From Seonamhaeicola sp. ML3 (GTDB lineage Bacteria; Bacteroidota; Bacteroidia; Flavobacteriales; Flavobacteriaceae): a stretch of 64,000 nucleotides of DNA. The notes below the pieces were generated by a model that worked only from the letters and a program-made list of their open reading frames with translations, made no database searches and was not told the DNA's origin. Location of the stretch: the NCBI RefSeq assembly GCF_023273855.1, contig NZ_CP096884.1:434001-498000 (forward strand). Direction: 5' to 3'. The translations under genes and the position numbers were made by a program. The first letter of the stretch is position 1. Each line of letters opens with the position of its first letter. Below are positions 21,057 to 48,010 of this stretch, one piece after another.

Positions 21057-21107
21057 ATGAAGAAACATATTGTTGTATTGACAGGAGCTGTAAACAAATT
21101 TGTGTAA
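21057..21107 (+). pseudogene. cobB: Sirtuin (NAD-dependent deacylase) gene, 5' fragment cut by the element
   Basis: The ATG at 21057 opens MKKHIVVLTGA, the first beta strand and NAD-binding start of a class III sirtuin. The frame then runs into element DNA (VNKFV) and stops at 21107. The remaining 218 codons are found 26.3 kb away at 47354-48010. Joining the two at the shared GC gives MKKHIVVLTGAGMSAESG with the intact GAG motif. Confidence 0.93.
21075..21105. other. attL: left attachment junction
   Basis: Chromosomal sequence ends ACAGGA, then comes the GC core at 21087-21088, then element sequence TGTAAACAAATTTGTG. The element arm is the imperfect reverse complement of the right element arm (10 of 14 positions over ACAAA..GTTTAC). 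Confidence 0.82.
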
Positions 21108-21125
21108 AACAAAAATTTTAATCCC

Positions 21126-21133
21126 TATCTTTA
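21126..21133 (+). promoter_or_regulatory. Probable integrase promoter -7 box (TATCTTTA)
   Basis: TATCTTTA differs by one base from the consensus and lies inside the element, 23 bp before the integrase ATG. The integrase may therefore be expressed without the cobB promoter. Confidence 0.4.
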
Positions 21134-21155
21134 ACCATATTTTAGTGTGGAAATT

Positions 21156-22883
21156 ATGGAGCAATTAGCGATATACTGTCGTAAATCTCAGGATAATAAA
21201 GATAGGGATTCTACTTCAATTGACGAACAAAAGAATCAGGGTAATTTAAAGGCTATAGAACTTAATTTAGAACCCGTATTATTTATTGAAGACACCAGTT
21301 CAGGTAAGCTTGACTTAAAGGATAGACCTGTTATGATGGACATGCTACAAAAAATAAGTGCTAAAGATTCTAAAATCAAAGCTGTCTTTGCTTATGATAC
21401 GAGTAGATTATATAGAAATGATGAAACTAAGCATAAGTTTTTAGCTATTATCAAAAGAAAAGATATTGAATTATATTTTAAATCAGGTAGGTTTGATTGG
21501 AATGACCCTCACTCTAAACTTTTACATAATATCTTATCTGCAACAGATGAATTTTTTGTTGACTTAACTTCTATTAAAATTAAAGATACATTAAGGTCAA
21601 AAGCAAGAGAAGGAAAGGTAAACGGTGCTGTTTTACCTTATGGATATACTAAAGATGAAAATAGTTATCTAAAGCCTGACGAAAGTGAATCTAAAATAGT
21701 TAAAAAGATATTTGATGACTTCATACAAGGTAAAACATCTTCAGAGATAAGAAATTGGTTAATTGATAATAATGTGCAAACAAGATACAATAAAATAGGC
21801 GGCACTAATAAAATAATTCATAAAGGTAGGAATGAAACAAGAGTATATAAAAAGTCTGATTCAACTTGGACAACTGGCACAATCTTACAAATAATTAGAA
21901 ATCCAATTTACAAAGGGAAAAGACGTTGGAGGGATGAATTTTTCGATGTTCCTTTAATAGTTGACCCAGTAAAATGGGAAAAAGCTAATAATAGTTATAT
22001 AAACAGAAACAAAGGCTCTCTAAGAGGCAAAAATACAGACCATAAATATTTACTTACTCCATTACTCCAATGCGGTTGCGGTCAATCACTTAATGGGCGT
22101 TCAAATAAACTTGAAAACTATTATGGTTGTGCAGGAAAAAGGTACAAGGAAAAAAAATGTAATTCTAAATACATTCCAGTTAATGTACTTGATTCAATAA
22201 TAACTAAATTAATATATGGAAATCTCTACAGTACAGTTAAGGAATCATTTTCTGATAATAATTCAGATAAACGAGAAGAACTCCAAACAAGAATTAAAAG
22301 TCTCGAAGCTGACTTAAAAAACATAGAAAATAACAAGCTAAGTGTAGAAAATTATCTTGCTGACGGCACTTATAATAAAGTACAATATTTAAGACAAGTT
22401 AAAAGGTTAGATAGTAAGGCAAATGAGATTAAAATAAAGAAAGCTAATATCGAGGAAAGCTTGAAATCGCTGAAAGGAGATACAAATATTTTAAGAGAAA
22501 TTGAAGAACTAACAAATATCGCTCATTCATATATAGATTACCCTTTTGAAGATACACACCCTGGTTTTATGAAGAATTACACCGACGCTGTTTTTAAGGG
22601 GTATCTCGCTTTAAAACTACCTTTTTTGGAAAGACAAAAAACATTTAGAAAGTTTATAAAGAACATACTGGTAAAATGGAAGCCCGAAAGTAAACTGTTT
22701 GAAATTACAATTAGTTACAAATTACCTATTGAGGATGAATTGTATTTAATGGATAGCTTAACATTGCACGTTGTTGATTCTAAAAAAAGACAAACCCAAT
22801 GGGCAAATACAGATAAATTAAAAAAACATAGAAAGGTAACTATTGAAGATGTACAGTCAAGACTGCAAAAGTATAAACTATAA
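21156..22883 (+). CDS. Large serine integrase (site-specific recombinase)
   Basis: The 575-residue protein (from ATG at 21156; a GTG at 21147 is also possible) starts with a resolvase catalytic domain. The nucleophile is Ser11 in IYCRKSQD, with VFAYDTSRLYRND and the helix E region downstream. A recombinase domain follows at about 170-300 (PYGYTKDENSYLKPDESESKIVKKIF, ILQIIRNPIYKGKRRW). Next are a zinc ribbon (LLQCGCGQSLNGR, YYGCAGK, KKCNSKYI) and a coiled-coil at about 375-450. This is the architecture of phage-type serine integrases. It starts 69 bp from the attL core, the expected position for the enzyme that inserted the element. Confidence 0.95.
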   Translation: MEQLAIYCRKSQDNKDRDSTSIDEQKNQGNLKAIELNLEPVLFIEDTSSGKLDLKDRPVMMDMLQKISAKDSKIKAVFAYDTSRLYRNDETKHKFLAIIKRKDIELYFKSGRFDWNDPHSKLLHNILSATDEFFVDLTSIKIKDTLRSKAREGKVNGAVLPYGYTKDENSYLKPDESESKIVKKIFDDFIQGKTSSEIRNWLIDNNVQTRYNKIGGTNKIIHKGRNETRVYKKSDSTWTTGTILQIIRNPIYKGKRRWRDEFFDVPLIVDPVKWEKANNSYINRNKGSLRGKNTDHKYLLTPLLQCGCGQSLNGRSNKLENYYGCAGKRYKEKKCNSKYIPVNVLDSIITKLIYGNLYSTVKESFSDNNSDKREELQTRIKSLEADLKNIENNKLSVENYLADGTYNKVQYLRQVKRLDSKANEIKIKKANIEESLKSLKGDTNILREIEELTNIAHSYIDYPFEDTHPGFMKNYTDAVFKGYLALKLPFLERQKTFRKFIKNILVKWKPESKLFEITISYKLPIEDELYLMDSLTLHVVDSKKRQTQWANTDKLKKHRKVTIEDVQSRLQKYKL

Positions 22884-23445
22884 ATATTCTCCTTTTTGTT
22901 GATTTTATAGTTATATTATAACTAATTGAAAATAAAAGTACTATGTTTTATTATTTGTAGAATTTTAATACTTTTTTTTTCTAACTTACTATTCATTAAT
23001 TTTGACCCTTTAAGGCTAATATTAACCTTAATTTTGGGGAAACTATACTGGGACATGGAGACATGCCGAGTCAGACCAAGGACGAGCATCCACAAATATG
23101 CTTGGTTGGGGTCTTAGAGGGTTTAATATCTGTACCTTTGCAATAACAGGGAAACATAGCGGAGAAATTTGAAGAGCGGTTGGAATCCGTATCGCAATCC
23201 TACATAGTTGAAAGTTCTTGATATAAATGCAGGTCGTAGGGAAGTATCCCCTATATTTTTCAAGTGTAGAAACTTGGAATCTGGCAAGGCTTTTTAAAGT
23301 CAAAACAGCTTGTCCGAAATTCAAGAATAGAATTTTAAATAGTTGATTTTCAGTATTTTAACTGATTTTCTCCCTTGGGATTTGTGTATCTATTCAACAA
23401 TGGCTAAATCATTGAGTCTTTTTAGTTTTTTTGACAGTCAAAAGT

Positions 23446-23461
23446 CGGAGCTGACGCTCCC
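23446..23461. repeat. Short GC-rich hairpin (GGAGC-TGAC-GCTCC)
   Basis: A 5-bp perfect stem with a 4-nt loop, embedded in AT-rich DNA and preceded by a T run. It may be a REP-like palindrome or a fragment of one. Confidence 0.4.
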
Positions 23462-23671
23462 CCTTTTAGATAAAGCAGCCTAAGTAAATATTTATATTCT
23501 AAAGATTTGTATTTCTTTCGAATAGGCTAAACAAAATACGGCACGGGGTGGACTATACCCATATTAGATTTTTTTAATGTATATTTAGTAGTACAACAAT
23601 TTACCCTATTGATTCTTCTAATAGGACATCTAAACTTATGTTAAACAAAATAAGGAGTTCTTAATTTTTTA

Positions 23672-24209: not shown

Positions 24210-27200
24210 ATGCTAAATAAAAGCATAAAATTTTTAATAGAAAATAAACTTGTAGCAGTTTTATTGCTCGTTCTTTTTATAGGTTGGGGAACTGTAAATG
24301 CTCCTTTTAATTGGGATGTTGGCTTTTTACCAAGTAACCCTGTAGCCGTTGATGCCATCCCTGATATTGGGGAAAATCAACAAATCGTTTTTACTAAATG
24401 GGATGGTCGTTCTCCACAAGATATTGAAGACCAAATTACCTACCCATTGACCACCTCATTATTAGGAATACCAGGAGTGAAAACCATTCGTAGTTCATCA
24501 ATGTTTGGCTTTTCCAGTATCTATATCATTTTTGAAGAAGACATAGAATTTTACTGGAGTAGAAGTCGGATTCTTGAAAAATTGAACTCACTACCAAGTG
24601 GATTACTTCCAGAAGGTGTAAATCCAGCTTTGGGTCCAGATGCTACTGGCTTAGGTCAAATATTTTGGTACACCCTTGAAGGACGTGATGAAAACGGAAA
24701 TGTAACTGGTGGTTGGGATTTACATGAATTACGGAGTATTCAAGATTACTATGTAAAGTATGCTTTGTCATCAGCAAGTGGTGTTTCAGAAGTTGCTTCG
24801 ATTGGTGGGTATGTTCAAGAATACCAAGTCGATGTTAATCCTGAGTTAATGCGACAATACAATATTGGTTTGCATCATGTTGTAAAGGCAGTAAAAGAAA
24901 GCAATAAAGATATAGGCGCACAAACCTTAGAGATTAATCAGGCTGAATATTTGGTTCGAGGGTTAGGCTATATAAAATCCATTGCAGATATAGAAAATGC
25001 TGTTATAATTTCTGAAGACTTTACAGCAATTAGAATTAAAGACATAGGAAATGTGTCTTTAGGAGCAGCAACAAGACGAGGTGTTTTGGACAAGGAAGGT
25101 GCTGAAGTTGTTGGAGCAGCAGTTGTAGCTCGATATGGAGCAAATCCAATGGAAGTCATCACAAATGTAAAAGAAAAAATAAGTGAGTTAAGTTCTGGGT
25201 TACCATCAAAAGTATTGAGTGATGGAAGAACGTCTCAACTTACTATTGTACCTTTTTATGACCGAACAGAATTGATTCAAGAAACGTTAGGGACACTTAA
25301 TGAAGCTTTAACTTTAGAGATATTGATAACAATTTTGGTCATCATTATTATGGTGTTCAATTTACGAGCTTCAGTTCTTATTTCTGGTTTACTACCTGTT
25401 GCTGTTTTAATGGTGTTTATAGCTATGAAACTCTTTGGAGTTGATGCAAACATTGTAGCCTTATCTGGTATTGCTATTGCTATTGGTACGATGGTAGATG
25501 TTGGTGTTATTCTTTCAGAAAACATAATAAGACACTTAGATGAAAACAAAAATAAGCTACCAATAAATACTGTGGTTTATAATGCAACTGCTGAAGTTTC
25601 AGGGGCTATTGTAACCGCAGTAATGACCACTATTATAAGTTTTATTCCTGTGTTTACAATGATAGGTGCAGAAGGAAAATTGTTTAGACCATTGGCATTT
25701 ACAAAAACCTTTGCTTTAACGGCTTCTATAATAGTTGCCTTATTCCTGATACCACCATTTGCGGCATTTCTATTTAGAAAGAAGAATATAAAAAAGACCT
25801 TTAGTTATGTAGTAAATGGGCTTTTAATCATAATTGGTATTGCAACAATAATATCTGGATATTGGATCGGTCTTATATTGATAGCATTTGGCATTACAGC
25901 CTTATTAAAATTTAATGGACAACTTTTAGAAAAAAGAGCGAACCTTATAAATATTGTAATCTCATCATTAACAATCGTCTTTCTTCTTGCTGAATATTGG
26001 AGACCTTTAGGTGTTGACAAAAGCATCTTTTGGAATCTCATTTTTGTTGGTATGATATGCTTTGGCTTATTAGGTGTGTTTACATTATTTAGAAGATACT
26101 ATACTCGCATTTTACAATGGGCATTAGCTAATAAAATCTTATTTCTATCTATTCCAACACTTATCGTGATTGGTGGATTTTTCATAATGAAAAATACAGG
26201 TAAAGAATTTATGCCATCGTTAAACGAAGGGTCTTTTTTACTCATGCCTACTTCGATGCCACATTCAGGTGTAGAAGAAAACAAACGAGTGCTTCAGCAA
26301 TTAGATATGGCTGTGGCAAGCATTCCAGAGATTAAAACCGTAGTTGGGAAAGCTGGACGGACAGAATCTGCTTTAGACCCAGCTCCATTATCTATGTATG
26401 AAAATATGATTCAATATAAACCTGAATATATGTTAAATCTGCATGGAGAGCGTCAACGCTATAGGGTTAACGAAGATGGTTTGTTTGAATTGAAGGATGG
26501 AAGTTTTGTAGCAAACCCTAATAACTCTGATAAAAACATTGTTCTTAATTCTGATATAGTTAGAGAACAATTAATTGAAGATAATGATGGAGAATTTTAT
26601 AGAAACTGGAGGCCAGTAATAAACAACCCTAATGACATTTGGAAAGAAATTGTACGTGTAACTAAGTTGCCAGGTGTTACATCAGCCCCTAAATTACAGC
26701 CCATAGAAACACGTTTGGTCATGTTGCAAACAGGAATGCGTGCTCCAATGGGAATTAAGGTTAAAGGACAAGATTTAAAGCAAATTGAAGCCTTTGGTGT
26801 TCAGTTAGAGGATATTTTAAAACAAGCTGAAGGTGTTAAAGTTGAAGCTGTATTTGCTGACAGAATAGTCGGAAAGCCTTATTTGTTAATTGATATAGAT
26901 AGGGAAAAATTGGCTCGTTATGGCATATCCATAGATGATGTCCAAAATGTTTTAAAAGTTGCTGTAGGCGGTATGGTATTAACTCAAACTGTTGAGGGTC
27001 GAGAGCGATACGGAGTAAGAGTTCGTTATCCAAGAGAGTTAAGGGGCAATCCTTCAGATTTAGAAAACATTTATATCCCAGTAGAAAAAGGAAGTCCAGT
27101 TCCATTGAGTGAATTAGCAACTATTCGTTACGAACAAGGCGCACAAGTCATTAAGAGTGAAGATACTTTTTTAGTGGGTTATGTGTTGTTCGATAAATTA

Positions 27201-27923
27201 GATGGGTATGCAGAAGTTAATGTTGTTGAAAATGCGCAAACCTTAATTCAACAAAAAATAGATTCAGGAGAATTAGTAGTTCCTAAAGGGATTAATTATA
27301 AATTCACAGGAACTTATGAAAATCAATTACGAGCAGAAAAAACCTTATCGGTTGTAGTGCCATTGGCATTGTTCATTATCTTCTTAATACTATATTTTCA
27401 GTTTCGTTCAGTAGCAACCTCTTTTATGGTATTTACAGGCATAGCCGTTGCTTTTGCAGGTGGTTTTATCATGATTTGGTTATATGGTCAAAACTGGTTT
27501 TTAAACTTCAATTTCTTTGGCGAAAACCTAAGAGACTTGTTCCAGATGCATCCTATTAATTTAAGTGTAGCTGTTTGGGTTGGTTTTATAGCCTTGTTTG
27601 GTATAGCTACTGATGATGGCGTTGTTATGGCAACTTACCTCACTCAAATATTTGATAGGAATAAACCAACAAACAAGAATGATGTAAGAGCATCAGTAAT
27701 AGAGGCAGGAGAAAAGCGTATTAGACCTTGTTTAATGACAACTGCAACTACCATATTAGCACTATTACCAGTACTAACATCAACAGGTCGTGGTAGCGAT
27801 ATTATGATTCCTATGGCAATTCCAAGTTTTGGAGGTATGCTCATTGCCTTAATCACTCTATTTGTTGTTCCAGTTTTATACAGTTGGAAAGCAGAATTAC
27901 AACTTAAAAAAGTAGCAAAATGA
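24210..27923 (+). CDS. CusA/CzcA-family heavy-metal efflux RND permease
   Basis: This is the inner-membrane proton/metal antiporter of a tripartite pump. The 1237 residues show the HME-RND start (DVGFLPSNPVAVDAIPDIGENQQIVF), the transport motif GIAIAIGTMVDVGVILSENIIRHLDE in TM4, and the GTDDGVV-like IATDDGVVMATYL late in the protein. The sequence resembles the Cu/Ag (CusA) subgroup. It is about 190 residues longer than E. coli CusA, mainly from extra hydrophobic segments at about 510-630 and a longer periplasmic loop. The stop overlaps the next start (ATGA), showing translational coupling. Confidence 0.93.
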   Translation: MLNKSIKFLIENKLVAVLLLVLFIGWGTVNAPFNWDVGFLPSNPVAVDAIPDIGENQQIVFTKWDGRSPQDIEDQITYPLTTSLLGIPGVKTIRSSSMFGFSSIYIIFEEDIEFYWSRSRILEKLNSLPSGLLPEGVNPALGPDATGLGQIFWYTLEGRDENGNVTGGWDLHELRSIQDYYVKYALSSASGVSEVASIGGYVQEYQVDVNPELMRQYNIGLHHVVKAVKESNKDIGAQTLEINQAEYLVRGLGYIKSIADIENAVIISEDFTAIRIKDIGNVSLGAATRRGVLDKEGAEVVGAAVVARYGANPMEVITNVKEKISELSSGLPSKVLSDGRTSQLTIVPFYDRTELIQETLGTLNEALTLEILITILVIIIMVFNLRASVLISGLLPVAVLMVFIAMKLFGVDANIVALSGIAIAIGTMVDVGVILSENIIRHLDENKNKLPINTVVYNATAEVSGAIVTAVMTTIISFIPVFTMIGAEGKLFRPLAFTKTFALTASIIVALFLIPPFAAFLFRKKNIKKTFSYVVNGLLIIIGIATIISGYWIGLILIAFGITALLKFNGQLLEKRANLINIVISSLTIVFLLAEYWRPLGVDKSIFWNLIFVGMICFGLLGVFTLFRRYYTRILQWALANKILFLSIPTLIVIGGFFIMKNTGKEFMPSLNEGSFLLMPTSMPHSGVEENKRVLQQLDMAVASIPEIKTVVGKAGRTESALDPAPLSMYENMIQYKPEYMLNLHGERQRYRVNEDGLFELKDGSFVANPNNSDKNIVLNSDIVREQLIEDNDGEFYRNWRPVINNPNDIWKEIVRVTKLPGVTSAPKLQPIETRLVMLQTGMRAPMGIKVKGQDLKQIEAFGVQLEDILKQAEGVKVEAVFADRIVGKPYLLIDIDREKLARYGISIDDVQNVLKVAVGGMVLTQTVEGRERYGVRVRYPRELRGNPSDLENIYIPVEKGSPVPLSELATIRYEQGAQVIKSEDTFLVGYVLFDKLDGYAEVNVVENAQTLIQQKIDSGELVVPKGINYKFTGTYENQLRAEKTLSVVVPLALFIIFLILYFQFRSVATSFMVFTGIAVAFAGGFIMIWLYGQNWFLNFNFFGENLRDLFQMHPINLSVAVWVGFIALFGIATDDGVVMATYLTQIFDRNKPTNKNDVRASVIEAGEKRIRPCLMTTATTILALLPVLTSTGRGSDIMIPMAIPSFGGMLIALITLFVVPVLYSWKAELQLKKVAK

Positions 27924-29137
27924 AAAGATTAGTATTAATACTTCTTGGTCTAATGACATTTAATTTTTCAAATGGGCAACAGTTGGAAATATTAATTAAT
28001 GAAGCATTAGCGAATAATCCAGAGATTCAGAAATTTGAATTACAATATAGTATTGCTTCAGAAAAAGTAAATGAAGTTAATACCATTCCAAACACCGAAT
28101 TTGGAGTAGGCTATTTTGTAAGTGAACCTGAAACAAGAACTGGAGCGCAACGTTTTAAAATTTCTGCAAAACAAATGATGCCTTGGTTTGGTTCTATTAC
28201 TGCCAGAGAAAATTATGTTAACTCATTGGCGGATGCTAAATATGAAGATATTGCGATTGCAAAACGAAAGTTAGTAGCTTCTGTATCTCAGTCTTACTAT
28301 AACCTCTATGCGCTTAAAACAAAACAAAGGGTTTTAGATGACAATATAGCATTACTTAAAACCTACGAAACATTGGCTTTAACGTCTCTTGAAGTAGGTA
28401 AAGCTTCAGCAGTTGATGTATTAAGATTGCAGATGAGACAGAACGAGTTATGGCAATCAAAGCAAGTTCTGGCGCAGTTGTATTTAGCAGAACAAACAAC
28501 ATTTAATAAGCTTTTAAATAGAGAAAAGTCTGTTGAAATTGATTTAGTTAGTGAATTAACTATACCATTAAATGATGCTTTAAATGACTCGAAAAATTTA
28601 GCATTACATCCTGAGCTGACAAAATATGATAAGTTGTTTAAATCTGTAGAACAATCCGAATTATTGAATCAAAAAGATAGTCAACCTATGGTTGGTTTTG
28701 GGTTGGATTATGTTTCGGTTTCAGAACGACCAAACATGAGTTTTAGTGATAACGGAAAAGATATTGTTATGCCTATGGTGTCACTTTCAATTCCGATTTT
28801 CAATAAGAAAAACAAATCGCAAACAAGACAGAACGCTTTAAAACAACAAGAAATTACATTCCAGAAACAAGAAAGAGAAAATGTTTTAGAAACTGCTTTA
28901 TCTAAAGCAATTAATAACAGAATAGCTTCACGAATTAGTTATGATACGCAAGCCAAAAACTTAAAACAGGCAAAAGATGCAGAAGACATTTTGATAAAAA
29001 GCTATGAAACAGGAACGATTGATTTTAATGATGTCTTAGACATCCAAGAATTACAATTAAAGTTTCAAATTAATCAAATAGAATCTGTGAAGAACTATTA
29101 TGTTCAATCAACAATTATTAATTACTTAACTATATAA
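27920..29137 (+). CDS. TolC-family outer membrane efflux channel
   Basis: The 405-residue protein has a signal peptide (ending SNGQQ) and two long helical hairpin repeats typical of TolC/CusC (EILINEALANNPEIQKFELQY; VASVSQSYYNLYALKTKQRV; ALKQQEITFQKQERENVLETALSKAINN). It forms the outer membrane duct for the RND pump. It overlaps the pump gene by 4 bases and lies 3 bp before the next gene. Confidence 0.9.
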   Translation: MKRLVLILLGLMTFNFSNGQQLEILINEALANNPEIQKFELQYSIASEKVNEVNTIPNTEFGVGYFVSEPETRTGAQRFKISAKQMMPWFGSITARENYVNSLADAKYEDIAIAKRKLVASVSQSYYNLYALKTKQRVLDDNIALLKTYETLALTSLEVGKASAVDVLRLQMRQNELWQSKQVLAQLYLAEQTTFNKLLNREKSVEIDLVSELTIPLNDALNDSKNLALHPELTKYDKLFKSVEQSELLNQKDSQPMVGFGLDYVSVSERPNMSFSDNGKDIVMPMVSLSIPIFNKKNKSQTRQNALKQQEITFQKQERENVLETALSKAINNRIASRISYDTQAKNLKQAKDAEDILIKSYETGTIDFNDVLDIQELQLKFQINQIESVKNYYVQSTIINYLTI

Positions 29138-29140
29138 AAA

Positions 29141-29869
29141 ATGAAACATACATATAATATACAAGGCATGACTTGTGGAAACTGTAAAGCTTCTGTTGAG
29201 AAGTATTTAAGTGAAGTAAATAATGTAACGGATGTTTCTGTGAACCTTGAAAGAGGAGAAGCAGAAATAACAATGAGCAGTCATATAGATACTAACGTAT
29301 TTCAAAAAGCCTTACCAGAAAAATATTTACTCACAGAGAAAAATGTATTTACTTCAGTAGAACCTTCAAGCCATGAAATAGAACAAGAAAAGAGCAAATT
29401 ACAACAATTAAAACCGTTATTACTTATTATCTTTTATATCGTATCAGCAAGTATTTTGCTACACTATAAAAACTGGTCTTGGGATTCTTTTATGCTTGAC
29501 TTTATGGGATTGTTCTATATCGTATTTAGTTTCTTTAAAATGCTCGATTTAAAAGGTTTTCCAGAATCGTTTAGAATGTATGACCCATTAGCTAAGAAAG
29601 TACCTGCTTATGGCAAAGTTTATCCTTTTATAGAAACAGGATTAGGTCTGATGTTCTTAATGCGATTTGAAGTGAATATTGCTTTAATTATCACACTTAT
29701 TGTTTTAGGAATAACAACTATTGGAGTTACTAAAACTTTATTGGATAAAAAATCTATCAGATGTGCTTGTTTAGGAACAGCACTAAAACTGCCCATGACA
29801 GAAGCTACATTTATTGAGAATGCTATTATGATTGTAATGGCTGTACTAATGTTATTAAACATATTTTAA
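29141..29869 (+). CDS. HMA-domain protein fused to a MauE/DoxX-like membrane domain
   Basis: Residues 1-70 are a heavy-metal-associated domain with the metal site GMTCGNC. The remaining part has four hydrophobic segments, the last pair linked by the Cys-containing loop IRCACLGTAL. HMA domains bind Cu(I) or Hg(II) through the CxxC pair. The membrane part resembles MauE/DoxX, suggesting a role in thiol redox or metal transfer at the inner membrane. It sits between the TolC-like and CusB-like genes with gaps of 3 and 1 bp. Confidence 0.82.
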   Translation: MKHTYNIQGMTCGNCKASVEKYLSEVNNVTDVSVNLERGEAEITMSSHIDTNVFQKALPEKYLLTEKNVFTSVEPSSHEIEQEKSKLQQLKPLLLIIFYIVSASILLHYKNWSWDSFMLDFMGLFYIVFSFFKMLDLKGFPESFRMYDPLAKKVPAYGKVYPFIETGLGLMFLMRFEVNIALIITLIVLGITTIGVTKTLLDKKSIRCACLGTALKLPMTEATFIENAIMIVMAVLMLLNIF

Positions 29870-29870
29870 A

Positions 29871-32070: not shown

Positions 32071-32140
32071 ATCGAAATCAACGAGCATAATTATTAATCA
32101 ATAATGTAAAAGACGTTCTAAATATTGATTAAGTATAAAT

Positions 32141-32175
32141 AACCCTCCTTGTTTAAGTAAGCTAAGAGGGTTGTT
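32141..32175 (+). terminator. Possible terminator after the pump operon
   Basis: AACCCTC (32141-32147) and GAGGGTT (32166-32172) pair around an 18-nt loop. Only a weak T-rich tail (GTTTC) follows. Confidence 0.4.
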
Positions 32176-32325: not shown

Positions 32326-32337
32326 TCATTAAATTTT

Positions 32338-36679: not shown

Positions 36680-39600
36680 TTATGAAAAATAGTATTGATA
36701 CTTATCCATTTTACTTGCAATAGAAGGAAAGGACATTGGTTTAGATTCAAGTTTTATATGTATGTCTTTTAAATCCAGTAAGACTTGATTAAGATAATAT
36801 AGGTCATGTTCATTTTTGTCAAGAGGTTTTCTACATTTTTCTAACTCTTCAATAAGTTGTTTACACACATCTGGAGAATTATTTTGAGCAATAGCATTAA
36901 TTGATTCAACAATAAACCTTATTGGGTTGCTATACTCATCAAATTTAAACTCATTATTTTCATAATAAGTTTTAATTAATTCAATGATATATGGGATTGA
37001 TTTTGGGTTGTTATGCTTAGGAAAGTCCTCTGTACGTAAACTATTTTTAGTTCTTCGTGTATATATCTTTTGCTCTTTAATCCAATTATTAAAATATAGG
37101 AATGCCTTTTCATAATTAGATTTAATAAGGTATTTAATAGTGATTAATTCTTTTAAGTGTTCATCATTTGCATTATAGTAATACAGTATTTTATCAATAA
37201 TGAAATCACTTTGGTTATTTTCAATTAGAATATCGAAAATTGACCATACTATATCACCTGTAATCTCTACTTGCATATTTTTGTTTGCAATTTTTTTAAG
37301 TAAATCTACAGAAGGGTTAATTTGATAATATTTCTTTAAGATTTCTTTTCTAAAGTAATGGTTTTGATTGTTATCTAATAAGTAGTCTTCTATTTTAGGA
37401 TAAGCCTTTCTTAAACGGTTATCAATAGCATAGATAAAGTGATTTTTTCTTATTTGCTCAACAGTAATGCCTTTTTCAATGTTTCGAATTATCCTGTCAT
37501 CAACTGTAGATTTATCTAATATTTTACATATATAGCCAATACCATGATGCTGTCCGTTAAAATTCATTGTACCATCAACCTCCAATAATTCTAAAAGGAT
37601 TTCATCAGGATACTTTAAATTAAGTAGATTTCTAAAATACCAAAGAAAATCACATTCCTCTTTATCTAATAAAGATTCTGATTCAAGATTTATAGATTTA
37701 ATCGATTCTTGGCACCAGTTATTGATAAAATCATATTGCTCTTTTGTAATCTCTATGGGCTTGTTTAGTCTGTTGTTACGCTTAGAATGTATTTCTTCTT
37801 TAATTTTCTTTATTAGGTATAATTCGCGGTTGACTAATTTAAGAACATCATCACAAGTAACATATTTGGAATTAGAATGACGTAATGTCTCATGAACAAT
37901 ATTAATGACTAATTGTGGAATGGACTTTTGTAATTCAAGACTCTCCCAATATATTTTCTCAAATTCATGAAGACTCTCCCAACTTGTTTTTTCTGATTGT
38001 AGATTAGTGAATAAAACTTTTACTAATTCTATTAATTTGTTTTTACTAAATAATAAATCAAAATTTAAACTTTCTTTAACCTCATGAAATTGCTGCCATT
38101 CACTTCTCTTTTTTTGTTCTAAAATATCTCCTTTAAAATCATAGTTTGTATCCTTCAAAATAAGACTTTGAAATTCTATTGCTAATTCGAAATTTCGCCA
38201 ACTCAAGTTATTTCTGAAATGCAGTACAGCTATATCTTTAATGTTACTTTTCTTGTATTCTTCCGCTAAAAATACAATACACTTATCAGTAGCTATGTGC
38301 GACATAAACCGCATTCCAATCTTATTTCTAACAACATAGAATTTTAAAAAGGCTTCATGTTGAGTATTTGTGATTTTGAAAAACTCAGAAAAATCTTTTT
38401 CAAAATCAAAAAGATATAACCTTTTTTCAATGCCTCTGTAAATAAAATTCACAACCTTATCTAAAATATTAGCTTCTTTAGAATACATAGTAGAAAGCCT
38501 TTGAATAGATTCTGTGATTTCGCTTTCGTTAAGATGATAATTATCTTTTCTAACTAATAGGAAATCTAAAGCAAATAAAAATGAGTCAATATCTCTAAAC
38601 TGTAAAAGAACATTCTTTAAATTTTGTCTTTCATTAGATGCTATGTTCCTATCTTCTTTATGCTTTCTTTTTTTATTTCCAGATATTTTTTGAGCTATAT
38701 TTTTTATGAAACTTATGTGCTTGTTAGGGTCAACAGATTTTTCGTTTAAGAACAATTCTTTTTGAAAACATTCTAATATGGAAGTGAAAATTCTATGATA
38801 ATCATTTTCTTGAATCTTAGATAATAGCTTTGTGAAAAACTCTTCATCTAAATGATATTCTAATCGTTTTACAAACCTTAATAAATCTGATTTAGCATCT
38901 AAATCGAAATCATCATTAGAATCGTCCAAATAATTTAATATTAATGACTTTATCTCTTCTTCTTTTTCTCTTAAATTCATGTGAGTCAATAAATCAAAAG
39001 CTGATATTCTTGTTCTTCTATGATTTGTTGTGTCATTTATTTCAGAGATTAAAAAATCGATATTTTTAACGTCGTCTCCAAACTTGGCAATTTTTATTGT
39101 TTCACTATCATTAGTCCTTATCCACAAAGTGTTAACCTTACACCTTTTAATAAAATAATCTTGAAAAACATCTGATCTTATATCTTTAGATATTCTGTCT
39201 GAATCAGATTTAAATAGAACTTCTGAATCGTATTTTTTAAGCCATTCCGTTAAATTTATATAAGTTTCATCAGTTGATTCTAAATCATTAATCAAATAGG
39301 ATATTGAATTTAACCATGAAGGGTGTGTTTTATTATTATCAGAATTAAGACTAATAAAGCTAATAATTTCATCAAATGGAAGCTTCATCAAGGCTTTTGA
39401 GACAAAATACTCTTGAAGGTTTTTATGCTCAAATTGCCATTTATCTGCGTTGTAAACTTTTTCAATAAAACAAGAATTGATTAGTTCTGCCTTATGATTT
39501 GGAATTAACATTGTTAGTTCGGAATCTTCAATCACTCTTGATTGCATTGCCTCTATGGTTAATGCAGTTTTTTTACATGCAGAAAATATTATAGACTTGT

Positions 39601-40927
39601 CATATTCTTTATTCTGAAATTTTCTAACTCTATCTTCCTCTAATCTTTTATCAACGTATTTTTCAATTAGGTCAGTTTTGTTTTTTGGTAAACTGGAGTT
39701 TTCCGAATAGTATTCTCCGAAAAGGTTTAAATAAAAAGGGTTTTCTAAAAACTCTCTTTGGTCTTCATTAACATGTAAGCCTAAAATTACTTTACGTGGA
39801 AATTTGAATGCTGACTGTAAATGATTTATTGCGCTTTGATAGCTTATACTGTCAAGAAAAAAGCATTCAAATTTTGGTATTCCTTTTACAATATTTTCAT
39901 AAATGTTGGTTCTACAACTAAGAACAAAATAAATATTCTTAAATTCATCTTTGTTATTAGAAATGAAGTTTTGGAGTTTAGCCTTAAACTCATTTATATA
40001 GGATATTTCATCCAAGCCATCCAAAATAATCAAAAGGTTAGGTATCTTATCCCAATCTTTTGGAAGAAAATCACTTATTTTACTATCAACTGTAAAACTG
40101 TTTATTACTCTGTAAAAAGGAATGGTATTCGTTTCTTCTCTATTCTTCCAAAAATATTGTGCCAGTTCAGCTAATTCTACAGATTTACCTAAACCTGGAT
40201 TGCCTAACAATGCTAACCCATCATTTTTTGAGTTTGAAATATTGTCCTTAACTATTGAGATTAGATTATCTGAATCATCTTCTTCATGATATAAATATCT
40301 ATGAGACTTCTTAGCTTTTTTTTCCTTAATTAGATTTCGTGGAATATAATTTGAACATTTTTTGGCGTTCGAAATAAATTTTTCTTTATCCTCTTCGCTA
40401 ACTATGACTTTCCTAAAATTTCCTCTTGAAAGAATGATGCTTTTAAACTTTTCAATTTCCTCATTCTCATTTATTTTGAGACTACATTCATGTTTGTAAA
40501 TTTCTTTGTAGATGTTTTTATTTAGAGCGAATAAGTTTTCTACTCCATTTGACTGTTCCAAAAGCCTTATTGTAAATGGAAATTTATCTAATATTGGTTC
40601 GGACTTTTCAGCATTTCTATTATTTCCAAAATTGGCTCTTGGACTGATAAATATTGCCAAATCGTTTTTTTTGAGCGTATAATTTGATTCTAAGTCATGA
40701 GCTTTGGCGTAAATTGCCCCAAACTTTAAATCTGTTGAATAGTCCTTACATTCAATATAAATTGATTTTTCAATTAAATTTTCACTGATAATAAATTGAA
40801 CATCAAAGCCATCTTGTGTCCCATTAAATTGGATACGCTCTTTATGAACTATATAGCCTAACTTGTTGAATAAGTAAGAGAAGAACTCTTTGGTTAATTT
40901 TTCAAAATTTTTACCATCATTTTTCAT
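36680..40927 (-). CDS. Nuclease-NACHT STAND protein, candidate anti-phage effector
   Basis: From ATG 40927 the chain has 1415 residues (a TTG at 40942 would add five). Residues about 1-125 resemble a PD-(D/E)XK nuclease: FEKLTKEFFSYLFNKLGY, then GFDVQF (Asp42) and IYIECKDY (Glu59, Lys61). A P-loop NTPase of the NACHT type follows, with Walker A GNPGLGKS (242-249), Walker B LLIILDGLDE (298-307), the sensor VLSCRTN (335-341) and the winged-helix motif FEHKNLQEYF near 499-508. The remaining 900 residues are helical and could be a sensor. Such proteins (bNACHT, Avs) sense phage proteins and activate a toxic effector, here DNA cutting. It is the last gene of a three-gene operon. Confidence 0.85.
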   Translation of the reverse strand: MKNDGKNFEKLTKEFFSYLFNKLGYIVHKERIQFNGTQDGFDVQFIISENLIEKSIYIECKDYSTDLKFGAIYAKAHDLESNYTLKKNDLAIFISPRANFGNNRNAEKSEPILDKFPFTIRLLEQSNGVENLFALNKNIYKEIYKHECSLKINENEEIEKFKSIILSRGNFRKVIVSEEDKEKFISNAKKCSNYIPRNLIKEKKAKKSHRYLYHEEDDSDNLISIVKDNISNSKNDGLALLGNPGLGKSVELAELAQYFWKNREETNTIPFYRVINSFTVDSKISDFLPKDWDKIPNLLIILDGLDEISYINEFKAKLQNFISNNKDEFKNIYFVLSCRTNIYENIVKGIPKFECFFLDSISYQSAINHLQSAFKFPRKVILGLHVNEDQREFLENPFYLNLFGEYYSENSSLPKNKTDLIEKYVDKRLEEDRVRKFQNKEYDKSIIFSACKKTALTIEAMQSRVIEDSELTMLIPNHKAELINSCFIEKVYNADKWQFEHKNLQEYFVSKALMKLPFDEIISFISLNSDNNKTHPSWLNSISYLINDLESTDETYINLTEWLKKYDSEVLFKSDSDRISKDIRSDVFQDYFIKRCKVNTLWIRTNDSETIKIAKFGDDVKNIDFLISEINDTTNHRRTRISAFDLLTHMNLREKEEEIKSLILNYLDDSNDDFDLDAKSDLLRFVKRLEYHLDEEFFTKLLSKIQENDYHRIFTSILECFQKELFLNEKSVDPNKHISFIKNIAQKISGNKKRKHKEDRNIASNERQNLKNVLLQFRDIDSFLFALDFLLVRKDNYHLNESEITESIQRLSTMYSKEANILDKVVNFIYRGIEKRLYLFDFEKDFSEFFKITNTQHEAFLKFYVVRNKIGMRFMSHIATDKCIVFLAEEYKKSNIKDIAVLHFRNNLSWRNFELAIEFQSLILKDTNYDFKGDILEQKKRSEWQQFHEVKESLNFDLLFSKNKLIELVKVLFTNLQSEKTSWESLHEFEKIYWESLELQKSIPQLVINIVHETLRHSNSKYVTCDDVLKLVNRELYLIKKIKEEIHSKRNNRLNKPIEITKEQYDFINNWCQESIKSINLESESLLDKEECDFLWYFRNLLNLKYPDEILLELLEVDGTMNFNGQHHGIGYICKILDKSTVDDRIIRNIEKGITVEQIRKNHFIYAIDNRLRKAYPKIEDYLLDNNQNHYFRKEILKKYYQINPSVDLLKKIANKNMQVEITGDIVWSIFDILIENNQSDFIIDKILYYYNANDEHLKELITIKYLIKSNYEKAFLYFNNWIKEQKIYTRRTKNSLRTEDFPKHNNPKSIPYIIELIKTYYENNEFKFDEYSNPIRFIVESINAIAQNNSPDVCKQLIEELEKCRKPLDKNEHDLYYLNQVLLDLKDIHIKLESKPMSFPSIASKMDKYQYYFS

Positions 40928-40942
40928 TGTTTTATAGAACAA

Positions 40943-42010: not shown

Positions 42011-42775
42011 ATGAAAAAAAATCTAATATTATTAATAATAGTAATTACTATAATTTTTAGCTGTTCATCTACGTCCGTTGATAATACAGATTCAAATAAT
42101 GATTCTACTTTAAACCCACCAGAATGGATAAGAGGTGTATGGTTAACAAGTACTTGGATAGATGCAGGATATGAATTTTCTACTGATGACTTTTGTTTTA
42201 TTGAATTATGTGATAAATCTTGTATAGGAGATGAAGCAGGAAGCTTTGATGTCAGCTATGAAGAAGAAATAACCGAAAGTTATTACTCTTTTGCCGTAAT
42301 TAGGTCAAATTCGGATAATACGTCGGCAACAAGAACAAAATATGAGTTTGAAAAGATTTCAGATACAGAAATCAAAAGGGGAAACCAAAGTGCTATTCAT
42401 ACTAAACAGCAAGATGATTGGGTAAATTGTAGCCTATTTGATGAAAACACTGTTTATCCTCTGAACAACGAAGATGCTTTTTTCGTTATTAGTGTTCCTA
42501 ATGCACCTGCCCGTGCAAGAGTTACATTAGAAATACATTTCAAAGACGGTTCAATGGAAAAAAGCGAATCAAACCCAAACTCATATATCCAAAAGGCAAT
42601 TAGGATAGACAAAGAAGCAACAAAAGCTGTATTGACTGTTAAAGATTTAGACAATTTGAGTGGTATCGATTATACCGTAATAGGTAGATTATATAATTCT
42701 GATTACAGTAACCAGTACTTCGTTATATACGAAGAAGATATAAGAGGTGTAGTTAAAACGATTTTCTTTGAGTAA
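42011..42775 (+). CDS. Hypothetical lipoprotein
   Basis: A signal ends in IIFSCSS (Cys18) and a low-complexity Asn/Asp/Ser linker follows. The 200-residue body includes PPEWIRGVWLTSTWIDAGYEFSTDDFCFIELC and a second domain from about residue 155 that reads like a beta-sandwich (ARARVTLEIHFKDGSMEKSESN, AVLTVKDLDNLSGIDYTVIGRLYN). No family recognised. It is divergent from the XRE regulator and may share control with it. Confidence 0.7.
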   Translation: MKKNLILLIIVITIIFSCSSTSVDNTDSNNDSTLNPPEWIRGVWLTSTWIDAGYEFSTDDFCFIELCDKSCIGDEAGSFDVSYEEEITESYYSFAVIRSNSDNTSATRTKYEFEKISDTEIKRGNQSAIHTKQQDDWVNCSLFDENTVYPLNNEDAFFVISVPNAPARARVTLEIHFKDGSMEKSESNPNSYIQKAIRIDKEATKAVLTVKDLDNLSGIDYTVIGRLYNSDYSNQYFVIYEEDIRGVVKTIFFE

Positions 42776-42807
42776 TTAATTAATGTGATATTGATAAAAG
42801 TGTATTT

Positions 42808-43230
42808 ATGGCATTTGTATATATTGGAATAGCAGTAGTTGTATTTATAATAATATTTAATATTTCTGATAAGGCAGTTAACAAAACTAATCCAAAGCCT
42901 CAAATAAACAGGGTAACAATGGATAGTATTGAAAATGTTATGAATAAACAGCAAAAGGCAATGAACGATTTGCAAAAACTTACAGAAGATAGGTTATATA
43001 GAACATTAACATTAGGGTTAGATAAAGCATCAGAAGAAATCAGGGAAAACCCAGACTATCTTAAAAGATATATGGAAGTATTGATAGAAAATCAAACTAA
43101 AGAAATATCTAAAACCGTTTATAAAACTTCTGCACCTAATTCACTATTGAGTGATGAGCAAATAAAATATTCTCTAAACGAAGCTGCTAAAAAAGTTCTT
43201 AATCACGCTAATAAATTAAACTCCCTATAG
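42808..43230 (+). CDS. Hypothetical single-pass membrane protein with helical tail
   Basis: The N-terminal membrane helix (FVYIGIAVVVFIIIFNI) is followed by a charged, mostly helical region of about 115 residues (NVMNKQQKAMNDLQKLTEDRLYRTLTLGLDKASEEI). It probably faces the cytoplasm or periplasm as a coiled coil. Not recognised. It lies 32 bp after the lipoprotein gene and 3 bp before the next small gene. Confidence 0.65.
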   Translation: MAFVYIGIAVVVFIIIFNISDKAVNKTNPKPQINRVTMDSIENVMNKQQKAMNDLQKLTEDRLYRTLTLGLDKASEEIRENPDYLKRYMEVLIENQTKEISKTVYKTSAPNSLLSDEQIKYSLNEAAKKVLNHANKLNSL

Positions 43231-43413: not shown

Positions 43414-43785
43414 GGAATTAGTTTCAAGTTACGCAAGAGCGTTTAACCACTTAAATTCAAATTATATAGTGATTATTTAGCTGATGGCTTTCAATATACT
43501 TCTCAATGGGTTTTTAGTGAGATTGAGAATAAAAAAAACTATTTGGAGTATTTTGAACAAAAATTAAAGCAATTTTTAAATTCCGATATAAAAATAATAG
43601 CAAGATTAGGTCTATATCGTAATAACTATTGTATTGTGCTATATCAAATAGACCTTAGCAAAAGAAATCAAACTAAAATAGTAACACTACTAATTGAATC
43701 TCAAAAAGGGAAAATAAAAAGGGCAGATATGTGTATGATTCCGAGTATTAGTCAAATAAATTTGTTAGAAGAAATACCAAGTTAG
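43394..43785 (+). pseudogene. Frameshifted small gene, NTF2-like/SnoaL-like in appearance
   Basis: ATG 43394 reads MKLKSHKELVSSYARAFNHL and then stops at 43480. From about 43460 the next frame continues with SDYLADGFQYTSQWVFSEI, LEYFEQKLKQFLNSDIKIIARLG and ends at 43785. Joined, they give one protein of about 130 residues with the pattern of a SnoaL-like fold. The break lies near 43455-43475. It may be a true frameshift or a sequencing error. Confidence 0.6.
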
Positions 43786-44114
43786 TATATGCCACTCTTA
43801 TTGAAAAAAAGGAATATTTTTTCGCATTAAACTTGACAATACTATTGTCATAAATATTATTATCAGAAATATATTAATAACTCACTTAAACACTTCATTT
43901 TAATTTTAAAAAACCACTTTTTGGGTAATAATTATGTCCTTTTGCGAGCATGTACCTAAAAAGCATAGATTTAGCCAGTTTTTATCACTAAATTTCTAAC
44001 TGACATTGAATAACTTTAAATTTTGAACACCTTAAAATTTTGCTATAAAAATGCTTAAAATCCTTGATATAGTTGAATTTTTGTTGATTTAACAAATTTG
44101 ATTTATAAATTACC

Positions 44115-44191
44115 TTGTATGGTTTTTTGTAGGTCTTTAATAATCATCTAAAAAACGTCTTTTTAGGCAAAAACACCTTGATAACCCCCAT
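44115..44191. repeat. Two-part repeat, copy 1
   Basis: TTGTATGGTTTTTTGTAGGT (44115-44134) is followed after 45 bp by GATAACCCCCAT (44180-44191). The same two blocks occur in the same order with a 44-bp gap at 44356-44432. Confidence 0.75.
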
Positions 44192-44224
44192 TTTGCCCAA
44201 AATGCCATTTTTTGCCCAAAATCC
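44191..44224. repeat. Direct repeat TTTTGCCCAAAAT
   Basis: TTTTGCCCAAAATGCC (44191-44206) is followed at once by TTTTGCCCAAAATCC (44210-44224). This resembles a pair of protein binding sites or iterons. Confidence 0.6.
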
Positions 44225-44354
44225 ACGTTCAGAACAAAATAACTTTAATTTTTTAAATCGGATAATTTCCGAACTTTCAATTCTTCGAAACGCTTACTAT
44301 ATATGAGATTACAGAAGTTCTAATTATTTTATTTTCTTTATTTTTTAAAATCTC

Positions 44355-44436
44355 TTTGTATGGTTTTTTGTAGGTTTATGTCGATTTGTAAAAATTGCAT
44401 ATTTGCCCCTGTCTGTACCGATAACCCCCCATACAA
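44355..44436. repeat. Two-part repeat, copy 2, with closing 9-bp stem
   Basis: TTGTATGGTTTTTTGTAGGT (44356-44375) and GATAACCCCCCAT (44420-44432) repeat copy 1. Here the ends TTTGTATGG (44355-44363) and CCATACAAA (44428-44436) are exact complements, so the whole unit can close as a hairpin of about 80 nt. Confidence 0.7.
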
Positions 44437-44713
44437 AACTCTGGTATTAAATCTTTTGGAATACCCCCTGCATATCCAAATTCAACATTTTAAAACAGCT
44501 CGAATTTTGGAATGTTTTCCATAATAAAAATCTTAATAAATAAGAATGTTATCATAAAACAATTAACGTGCTATTTTTAGATTATAGCCTAATTGCAATA
44601 CAGGCAAAAAATAATACTTCACAAAAAAAAAGACATAAAAATATACTAAATATACCTACCCTAAAATTAGTACATTAATTAGGTTTTTTGTATATTTATT
44701 ATAAATAAAAAAA

Positions 44714-44781: not shown

Positions 44782-45303
44782 ATGACAAATGTACAAATTT
44801 ATGTTGGTACTTATGCCAAGTACAACAATGGAAGCATTTACGGAAAATGGTTCAAATTAAAAGATTATTCTGATTATCTGGAACTGCAAAAAGCAATTAA
44901 AGAATATCATAAGGACGAGGAAGACCCAGAGTTTATGATTCAAGATTACGAATGTTCTGAAATAATAGAAAGTTTAGGGTTAATTAGTGAGTGCCATATT
45001 TCTAAAGAAATATATGAAATCATTGAAGAAATTGAAGATTGTTGTTATGAAGAAGAAATAGTTGAAGCTTATATTCATTGCTTTGGAGGCGCAAATAATA
45101 TTCAAGAAATTTTAGATAATGTTAATGAATCTTATTGTGGAGAGTTTTTAAGCGATGTTCAATTCACAGAGCTTCTTTTAGAAGAAATGGGGGATTTGAA
45201 ACCTGAATTACCTTCTTATATTCATATAGATTGGGAAAGAACAGCTTCGGATATTATGATGGACTATGCTAATCATAATAACCATTATTTTAGATTAATG
45301 TAA
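44782..45303 (+). CDS. ardA: Antirestriction protein ArdA
   Basis: The acidic 173-residue protein starts with VQIYVGTYAKYNNGSIYGKW and has KDEEDPEFMIQDYE, then an EAYIHCFGG motif and a C-terminal DWERTASDIMMDYANHNNHYFRL. This is ArdA, a DNA mimic that blocks type I restriction enzymes. Mobile elements carry it to survive entry into a new host. It is followed by a terminator at 45310-45334. Confidence 0.93.
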   Translation: MTNVQIYVGTYAKYNNGSIYGKWFKLKDYSDYLELQKAIKEYHKDEEDPEFMIQDYECSEIIESLGLISECHISKEIYEIIEEIEDCCYEEEIVEAYIHCFGGANNIQEILDNVNESYCGEFLSDVQFTELLLEEMGDLKPELPSYIHIDWERTASDIMMDYANHNNHYFRLM

Positions 45304-45347: not shown

Positions 45348-45956
45348 ATGAAAACAAGATACATAAGAGTAAGTACTGGAAATCAAAAAACGGAAAGGCA
45401 ACTTGTGAAAAAGCATCCAAACGAAGTTTTATACATTGATGTTATTAGTGGAGCTATACCGTTTAGAGAAAGACCTAAAGGAAAAGAAATATTAAAAGAA
45501 ATTGAAAAAGGCAATATTGATTACATTTCTGTACATAGTATTGATAGGCTCGGTAGGAGCTTATATGATATACTTTCTACTTTAGAAATATTAAATAAAA
45601 ATAAAATTACACTCAAAGTAGATAATTTAGGCATAGAAAGTTTAGTTGACAATAAACCTAACCATGCATTTAAATTAATTATTTCTGTTATGGCTAACAT
45701 TGCAGAAATGGAAAGAGAATCTCTCTTGGAAAGGCAAAGAGAAGGTATCGCTATTGCTAAAGCTAAAGGTGTTTATAAAGGTAGAATAAAAGGATCTGCC
45801 GAATCTGACAAACAAGTACTACACAAGTATAAAAACGTTGTTAAACAGCTTAAAAATGGGCAGTCTTTGAGAAATACAGCGAAGCTATGCGACGTTTCCT
45901 TAGGAACAGTACAAAAGGTAAAGTCTATTATGAAAAATCAAAGTATAATAACTTAA
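45348..45956 (+). CDS. Small serine recombinase (resolvase/invertase family)
   Basis: The 202-residue protein has the resolvase catalytic domain with nucleophile Ser9 in IRVSTGNQ, then DYISVHSIDRLGRSLYDIL and IAEMERESLLERQREGIAIAKAKGVYKG. A C-terminal HTH follows (GQSLRNTAKLCDVSLGTVQKVK). It probably resolves dimers or inverts a short segment. The inverted repeats at 47135-47226 are possible targets. It is separate from the large integrase at the other end. Confidence 0.92.
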   Translation: MKTRYIRVSTGNQKTERQLVKKHPNEVLYIDVISGAIPFRERPKGKEILKEIEKGNIDYISVHSIDRLGRSLYDILSTLEILNKNKITLKVDNLGIESLVDNKPNHAFKLIISVMANIAEMERESLLERQREGIAIAKAKGVYKGRIKGSAESDKQVLHKYKNVVKQLKNGQSLRNTAKLCDVSLGTVQKVKSIMKNQSIIT

Positions 45957-45970: not shown

Positions 45971-46708
45971 TTATGCAGCTTTTAAATTATCCTTTTCATT
46001 ACTGTGATTCTGAAGAATAGATGTCCATCGCCTCTTAATCGTACTTAGGCTTAAAGGAACTTTCTTTTCCAATTCCTCTTGGGTCATTCCGTCCCTGTAG
46101 GCATTAATAAGTAATTGAAGATTTTTATTTAAAATCGTTTTACCTCCATCTTTATTAGTCAAATCCGATTTCTGATATGGAGTCAAATCATAATCTGGAT
46201 TCCACAGAATTGGTAAGCACTTTACACGCCCTTTAAAAACTGAAGGTTTTTCGATTATCTTATCTATAATATCTTCAATTTTTTTAAATGATTCAAGTCG
46301 CTCTTCTGTTAGCTTGAAAACATGATGAATAGGGGTATAATGATAGTAAATTTCGTTCGCTAATGCTACTAAGCAATCTTTTTTTGCTTTAGTACATATA
46401 TGATAGCCATTTAGAATCCCGTTCAAAACCCTGTAAAACCGATTTAAGGATTTTAGTCTTTTTTCTGGAAGTAATACTTGCATAAACTCAAATTGCCCTC
46501 TTAAAAATGGTTCTCCATTAAAATATTGGTTTGCTATAACTATATGCTCGTTAGAAGTGAGGACATTAAAGAATGGTTTATGATATGTTTTTATATCATT
46601 AGGCTCTACATAAGTTATTTTTATGCCAGATAAGGGTGTGCCTTTGGTAAATAGTTCATTTAATTCTTCTAAACTATTGCGTTTTGTGAGTGTTATTTTA
46701 CTTTCCAT
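45971..46708 (-). CDS. Hypothetical protein with C-terminal helix-turn-helix
   Basis: The 245-residue protein has no recognised domain over residues 1-190 (includes NGILNGYHICTKAKKDCLVALANEIYYHYTPIHHVF). A C-terminal HTH, LINAYRDGMTQEELEKKVPLSLSTIKRRW, resembles that of resolvases and sigma factors. It is convergent with the resolvase gene with a 14-bp gap and lies close to the right end of the element. It may be a DNA-binding accessory factor. Low-certainty annotation. Confidence 0.65.
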   Translation of the reverse strand: MESKITLTKRNSLEELNELFTKGTPLSGIKITYVEPNDIKTYHKPFFNVLTSNEHIVIANQYFNGEPFLRGQFEFMQVLLPEKRLKSLNRFYRVLNGILNGYHICTKAKKDCLVALANEIYYHYTPIHHVFKLTEERLESFKKIEDIIDKIIEKPSVFKGRVKCLPILWNPDYDLTPYQKSDLTNKDGGKTILNKNLQLLINAYRDGMTQEELEKKVPLSLSTIKRRWTSILQNHSNEKDNLKAA

Positions 46709-46793
46709 ATTCCTTTTGACCTTCCGTTAATTCATTGCGTAAAATTATTTTAATTTGACTTTTCTGGCAATTATGTCACAAAAAGACAAAGTT

Positions 46794-46814
46794 TCCCTAC
46801 TAAATCAGTAGGGA
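46794..46814. repeat. 8-bp perfect hairpin
   Basis: TCCCTACT, loop AAATC, AGTAGGGA. It lies 86 bp upstream of the minus-strand gene's start and is not followed by a T tract. Confidence 0.5.
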
Positions 46815-47134
46815 TTAGGGTTTAACCTGTCTTTATATTATTATATATATACTGCGTGACACCTTTCTATTTAGAAAATTTGCAATACAAACCATTCATT
46901 AAAAGACACTTAGAGACTAACCTTCGGTTGTGTAGTAAAAAAGTAGGATAAATCATAGGTGTAATCCAGAAGTGCCACGGCACCAAGAACTACCACCTAC
47001 AGATATTTTTAATAGAGGAATTTGTGCCATCTAATCTTTCTAAGATTTTTGTATTAATAAGTATTAGTACGAAATGGCACGTGGGGAGCTATATCTTTTA
47101 TATCCTTTCTCCTATTAAATAGATTTACCAAAAA

Positions 47135-47226
47135 TTGATAGGTTTAACTAAGTGGGCGCAAAATATTTAGTTTTTTTAATTAAATTAAGAATAGAGACTA
47201 AACCGCCCATAAACTAAACCTATCAA
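47135..47226. repeat. Long inverted repeat near the right end
   Basis: TTGATAGGTTTA (47135-47146) and TAAACCTATCAA (47215-47226) are exact complements. Inside them AGTGGGCG (47151-47158) and CGCCCAT (47204-47210) continue the match with gaps, and TTTAGT/ACTAAA pair further in. It could be a resolvase site or a structured RNA. Confidence 0.6.
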
Positions 47227-47339
47227 ATCAGGCTTATTAGAATTGAGCAAGTCAATTAAACTTTTGTTTAAGCCCCACCAAAGCCCAGTAAAATTGAAAT
47301 GATTAAAAAAAATATTTAGAACAATAAATTAATTGCCAA

Positions 47340-47370
47340 CAAAAAGTTTTACTGCAGGTATGAGTGCCGA
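47340..47370. other. attR: right attachment junction
   Basis: Element sequence AAAAAGTTTTACT is followed by the GC core at 47354-47355 and then the cobB codons AGGTATGAGTGCC. Together with attL this defines the element ends. Confidence 0.82.
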
Positions 47371-48010
47371 AAGTGGTGTAAAAACATTTAGGGACCATGA
47401 TGGACTTTGGGAAGGCCATGATGTTATGCAAGTAGCTTCGCCCCAAGGATTTGCAAACGACCCCGAACTGGTTTTTGATTTTTATAACCAAAGACGCCGA
47501 CAACTCTTTGAAGTTGAACCAAACAGTGCACATTACGACTTGGCTAATTTGGAATCTAATTACAACGTTTCTATAATAACCCAAAATGTGGACGATTTGC
47601 ATGAAAGGGCCGGAAGCACGAATATATTGCACCTTCATGGGGAACTATTAAAAGTTAGAAGTACTCATGATGACACCAACATTAAAGTATGGAAAACCGA
47701 TTTAGTTTTGGGGGACTATTGTGAAAAAGGACATCAATTACGCCCCCATATTGTTTGGTTTGGAGAAGATGTCCCGCTCATCAGTAAAGCTGTGGAAATA
47801 TGCGCTTCTGCCGATGTATTATTCATTATTGGAACTTCAATGCAGGTGTATCCAGCTGCTGGATTAATGCATTATATCCCCGAAAAGACGCTTGTTTTTT
47901 ATATAGACCCCAACCCTGCTCTATCTGGAAAGGAAAACATTACCGTTATTGCAGAACCTGCTACGATAGGTGTAAGACAAGCCATTACACTATTAAATGC
48001 ACTAGATTAA
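47354..48010 (+). pseudogene. cobB: Sirtuin (NAD-dependent deacylase) gene, 3' fragment
   Basis: This part encodes all of the sirtuin beyond residue 11: GMSAESGVKTFRDHDGLWEG, FYNQRRRQLF (Tyr/Arg pair of class III desuccinylases), TQNVDDLHERAG, the catalytic His in LHLHGELL, and GTSMQVYPAAGL. A TTG at 47333 in element DNA could start a hybrid protein with SFTAGMS in place of LTGAGMS. It lacks the first strand and the GAG loop, so NAD binding should fail. The gene is probably inactive while the element is present. Confidence 0.92.

Follow-up and report, generated by a model that had tools for sequence, protein, structure and literature searches.

A 64,000-nucleotide stretch of the genome of Seonamhaeicola sp. 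ML3 (contig NZ_CP096884.1, positions 434,001 to 498,000), hereafter the window, carries an island of 26,267 bp that is bounded on each side by a GC core (21087-21088 and 47354-47355) and interrupts cobB, a gene of the SIR2 (sirtuin) family. This is very probably a site-specific island, whose large serine integrase recombines an attachment site of its own (attP) with a site at the 5' end of cobB (attB), the exchange occurring at GC. It is most likely that cobB is simply inactivated by the integration.

The codons at the 5' end of cobB through the GC core (21057-21088, + strand), which start with an ATG at 21057 and form the left half of attB now enclosed in attL, are uninterrupted in relatives, and the remainder of the gene is found at 47354-48010 (+ strand), with a match to PF02146 of 142.2 bits against a cut-off of 24. 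Rejoining of the flanks at the GC gave an uninterrupted CobB of 228 aa with the N-terminus MKKHIVVLTGAGMSAESG, and a first-pass annotation of this DNA was thereby found correct to the base as to the coordinates of the split, the shared GC and the lossless in-frame join. The left piece encodes MKKHIVVLTGA followed by a stop within a few further codons, and the right-hand piece was the single match in a SIR2-family search of the Seonamhaeicola sp. ML3 genome. Since this genome consists of one 3.47-Mb contig, an artefact of contig joining is unlikely. The large serine integrase (21156-22883, + strand; 575 aa from the ATG) contains the Resolvase (PF00239), Recombinase (PF07508) and zinc-ribbon (PF13408) domains, all above the Pfam cut-offs. 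While the mechanical list of open reading frames (ORFs) places its start at a GTG at 21147, the spacing of 69 bp between the left core and the integrase given in the first-pass annotation holds for the ATG at 21156.

In order to compare the reconstructed join with natural empty sites, as that annotation had suggested, we examined the 30 cobB loci returned, one of which was the window's own and 29 foreign (L003-L031), including two congeneric ones. The gene was uninterrupted, with an open frame across the motif, in all 29 foreign loci. A stricter motif pattern matched 28 of the 29, every one with GC at the core (28/28); the one remaining locus, L016, carries a variant residue. The intact cobB of the congener G213 adjoins the same SpoU methylase gene as in the window, and that of the congener G374 adjoins the window's downstream genes; the G374 stretch examined gave no match to SpoU. 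The empty site agreed with the reconstructed join. The integrase domains, the exact join and the intact sites in relatives together well supported the earlier identification of a serine-integrase element with a GC core and cobB as its attB.

Split cobB genes were further sought among the cobB matches listed for genomes of the family. Related islands were identified at the same cobB codon in two further hosts, namely Pontimicrobium aquaticum CAU 1491 (G200, in which the cobB match begins at residue 11), with an element of 19,148 bp and an integrase 83% identical to that of the window, and the uncultured Flavobacteriaceae YR2-1303, with an element of 25,499 bp and a 100% identical integrase. Another genome, G170, in which the match begins at residue 15, was dropped as a further interrupted cobB because its contig ends there. 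The attL and attR of the window have GC alone in common, as do those of P. aquaticum, which fixes the core as GC, and the five bases shared in YR2-1303 are compatible with this core. In the window, attL (21087-21120, + strand) comprises the GC core and the integrase-proximal attP arm, the same arm being present in YR2-1303 and P. aquaticum, and attR (47333-47355, + strand) comprises the other attP arm, in which a TTG precedes the cobB remainder in frame, and the GC core. In all three hosts the rejoined flanking sequences restore cobB and the integrase frame is open. The same codon is occupied in 3/3 close integrase relatives, the window included; the other two came from a pattern-limited scan of species genomes from which the window's own record was possibly omitted. 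These findings agreed with the earlier proposal of a conserved motif codon as the target, used in more than one host; a search for other elements with the same core in this codon had been suggested there. As for more remote integrases, eleven sequences of 30-35% identity had no cobB within the flanking DNA examined (about 1.5 kb or less per side). No close relative of the integrase was present among 11 pattern stretches from viral contigs, nor was one found in the plasmids or in the phages searched, the hits in the latter being two records of a single phage, 29% identical.

The integrase, two ORFs of 254 aa and 140 aa, a non-coding block, a small serine resolvase and a 245-aa protein are common to all three elements. 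Judged from this gene content and from the insertion site, the three elements are a family of cobB-specific large-serine-integrase islands that have a common backbone and differing cargo.

Comparison of the window with YR2-1303 in 400-bp steps revealed an identity of 66-68% up to attL and of 98-100% at 21.1-27.5 kb, the first 90 bases after the core being identical. Vertical descent gives no such step, and the island thus moved recently between hosts. The right part is mosaic relative to YR2-1303, with 89-100% identity at 41.9-45.8 kb, 66-77% in the gene of the 245-aa protein, 88-89% at 46.7-47.3 kb and 71-74% in cobB. The 245-aa protein is 62% identical to its YR2-1303 counterpart versus 98% for the adjoining resolvase, a difference between neighbours that indicates a recombination breakpoint near 45.9 kb. 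The YR2-1303 element, although similar elsewhere, gave no blastn match to about 32.2-36.6 kb of the window (32211-36643), a module that encodes a TonB receptor, a Fur-like regulator, DUF3703 and MerTP. Comparison among genomes thus establishes the use of the site in three hosts, the match to the empty site and the recent movement.

In the mechanism that we propose, the exchange would take place at the GC within the codon for Ala in the GAG motif, and integration would cut off codons 1-10, which specify the first strand together with some of the NAD-binding motif, with the consequent loss of the only sirtuin detected. The motif may be targeted because its conserved codons offer a landing site in many hosts, and the island may be kept because its cargo (metal efflux and candidate defence) can repay the host, which can do without cobB. 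With respect to the latter, the rejoined CobB matched 325 of the 397 family genomes. Among the 330 of at least 90% completeness and at most 5% contamination, it matched 290, and the absence of a match in the other 40 indicated that loss of cobB is tolerated and that the gene is dispensable. Precise excision would rebuild cobB; the geometry implies this, as it does whenever an element sits inside a gene, and regulation does not follow from it.

Several points weigh against inactivation by a site-specific island. Neither recombination nor excision was observed. The integrase is rare, with two loci in the species-genome scan and its own copy alone in 395 genomes of the order (E 1e-70; this set overlaps the family genome set). 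A re-capped CobB protein, as discussed below, is conceivable although improbable. In addition, the split cobB pieces are without clear decay, which is also compatible with frequent excision: in the 99 columns that do not vary among the 29 intact genes, the three split genes showed 1, 0 and 1 deviations, and the intact genes themselves 0-3 in a leave-one-out comparison. The near-identity of the window and YR2-1303 elements, however, reflects recency and thus explains the missing decay in at least one of these two hosts. Furthermore, the P. aquaticum cobB remainder (L046 6582-7250) has a Gly → Asp substitution after SAES, at a residue that never varies among the 29 intact genes, and this could possibly be a first sign of decay of the split gene.

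The alternative that survives best, which we regard as unlikely but deserving of attention, is that the island is fixed in Seonamhaeicola sp. ML3 and effectively never excises, the loss of cobB being permanent. No transfer or phage genes were recognised among the ORFs scanned, and serine integrases generally require a directionality factor for excision according to the main text of an integrase survey (PMC12884075), none being identified here; both observations are in line with such a stuck insertion. In contrast, the intact integrase frame weighs against it, as does the near-identity of the left end with that of another host, which points to recent movement.

There is only a slight chance that the island instead provides a new start for the gene, the in-frame TTG in the attR arm, so that a CobB of slightly reduced length continues to be produced. 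In all three elements the frame from the TTG is open, with PTKSFTAGMSAES following the first residue in the window, and such re-capping has a published precedent in the dusA islands (PMC4482086). Initiation at the TTG, however, would swap KKHIVVLTGAG for PTKSFTAG, which deprives the protein of the greater part of its first strand and of one Gly in the GAG motif. Moreover, the DNA that blastn aligns with P. aquaticum starts again only some 28 bp ahead of the core, the bases immediately before it showing no similarity, as expected for an attP arm and not for a promoter; the TTG is thus best read as part of the conserved integrase-binding arm. Promoter-like sites upstream did not exceed the level in shuffled sequences (4 versus a mean of 3.3), in a scan that does not cover Bacteroidota promoters, and a Flavobacterium-type promoter pattern occurred in the window no more often than after shuffling, without any occurrence close to attR.

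The first-pass annotation had further proposed a reversible switch for protein deacylation. As a regulated switch, the island would leave the gene under some condition, so that cobB is restored and deacylation altered, and would then reintegrate, like the SPbeta prophage at spsM. Although the restorable cobB, the open integrase frames and the preserved split genes of the three hosts are in its favor, this proposal was not supported and is very improbable, since no directionality factor, excision-linked regulator or regulated excision was found, the cargo, which varies from one element to another, is not tied to deacylation, and cobB is dispensable. Just as improbable is the broader notion that in several Flavobacteriaceae such islands couple the carriage of cargo to acylation of the host proteome, integration removing the sirtuin and regulated excision returning CobB. 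The reconstructed attP pattern had no exact match in the assembly, in which a rare excised form would not show.

The preferred interpretation, a large-serine-integrase island that inactivates cobB, is in good agreement with known modes of insertion. In the main text of the study of Durrant et al. (2022; PMC10083194), 82.8-88.3% of the clusters of large serine recombinases (LSRs) are predicted to be relatively site-specific, and six 50%-identity clusters hit one site in a prolyl isomerase gene. Like those LSR elements, the present island has a serine integrase and a dinucleotide core and occupies a conserved position within a coding gene, while the sirtuin target and the Flavobacteriaceae host set it apart from what is described there; the terms 'Sir2', 'deacetylase' and 'Bacteroid' are absent from that main text, as is 'cobB' from that of the integrase survey (PMC12884075). 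By title and opening of the abstract, none of the papers listed in the literature searches described a serine element inserted in a sirtuin gene. The dusA islands (PMC4482086) likewise are diverse islands sharing a common integrase and one conserved site at the 5' end of a coding gene; they differ in their tyrosine integrases, in the proposed replacement beta strand and in excision having been shown by PCR. SPbeta in Bacillus subtilis spsM (PMC4191935) is similarly located inside a coding gene that precise excision rebuilds, whereas SprA, SprB and sporulation-timed excision are proven for SPbeta and the present island has no recognised phage genes. While the mode of insertion is familiar, what appears to be new from these comparisons is cobB as the target, together with the use of the same codon in two further hosts. 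As the landing-site codons are conserved across the relatives examined, the natural set of integrase, attP and attB could serve genetics in Flavobacteriaceae, and the natural interruptions of a sirtuin gene in three hosts make both the role of CobB and the switch claim directly testable.

Among the cargo of the island, a metal-efflux module (24210-31640, + strand) encodes a CusA/CzcA-family RND pump, a TolC-like outer membrane protein, an HMA-MauE protein and a CusB-like adaptor, with matches to TIGR00914 (775 bits; cut-off 701) and RND_mfp (147.9 bits; cut-off 94.9). Further metal-related cargo (31675-36375, + strand) comprises an HMA protein, DUF6660, the TonB receptor, the Fur-like regulator, DUF3703 and a MerTP fusion (308.7 bits; cut-off 180). 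A candidate defence gene (36680-40942, - strand) encodes a 1420-aa protein with a marginal match to the NACHT domain (PF05729, 27.2 bits; cut-off 26.7), which gave no informative PADLOC match and no PDB match; two small ORFs on the same strand precede this gene. An ArdA-type antirestriction protein is encoded at 44782-45303 (+ strand; 84.1 bits, cut-off 27). The cargo of the P. aquaticum element is of another kind, with SOS-type and GmrSD genes; it encodes a UvrD-like helicase, an S24 peptidase together with an impB/mucB-type polymerase, and GmrSD, HEPN and SRAP proteins, the GmrSD protein also matching a PADLOC model of candidate defence. Pfam searches of the 20 element ORFs detected no relaxase or type IV secretion genes, of which very divergent ones could escape, and no capsid, terminase or tail genes, PHROGs covering seven window proteins. 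By the features tested, the element is a large-serine-integrase island, and it lacks those tested for an integrative and conjugative element and for a prophage.

Concerning the backbone, the 254-aa ORF, which has a lipoprotein-like start, and the 140-aa ORF (42011-43230, + strand) are followed by the conserved non-coding block (43930-44560), a candidate origin, transfer or resolution site, which contains a repeat pair spaced by exactly 241 bp in all three elements. The block is 82% identical to that of P. aquaticum, and the homologous stretches are L046 3680-4640 and L054 6990-8010. Among 378 family genomes, it was full-length in its own genome and in G200 only, the 47 others having short AT-rich matches of at most 50 bits. 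When the three sequences were folded as RNA, 15 of 216 pairs were changed on both sides and the covariation term was unfavourable, so that a structured RNA was unsupported; an Rfam search over 20-49 kb gave nothing up to an E value of 0.1. Downstream lie the small serine resolvase/invertase (45348-45956, + strand) and, adjoining attR, the gene of the 245-aa protein (45971-46708, - strand), of which only the P. aquaticum homologue had a weak helix-turn-helix match. A single-sequence structure model did not resolve the fold of this protein (mean pLDDT 40.7). The protein is only a candidate directionality factor; no homologue of such a factor was recognised in the island, and these factors are not known to be conserved. 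Finally, an 80-aa ORF (43543-43785) resembles the C-terminal part of a 127-aa P. aquaticum ORF (L046 3310-3693), the corresponding ORF of YR2-1303 is 130 aa long, and the window copy thus looks shortened.

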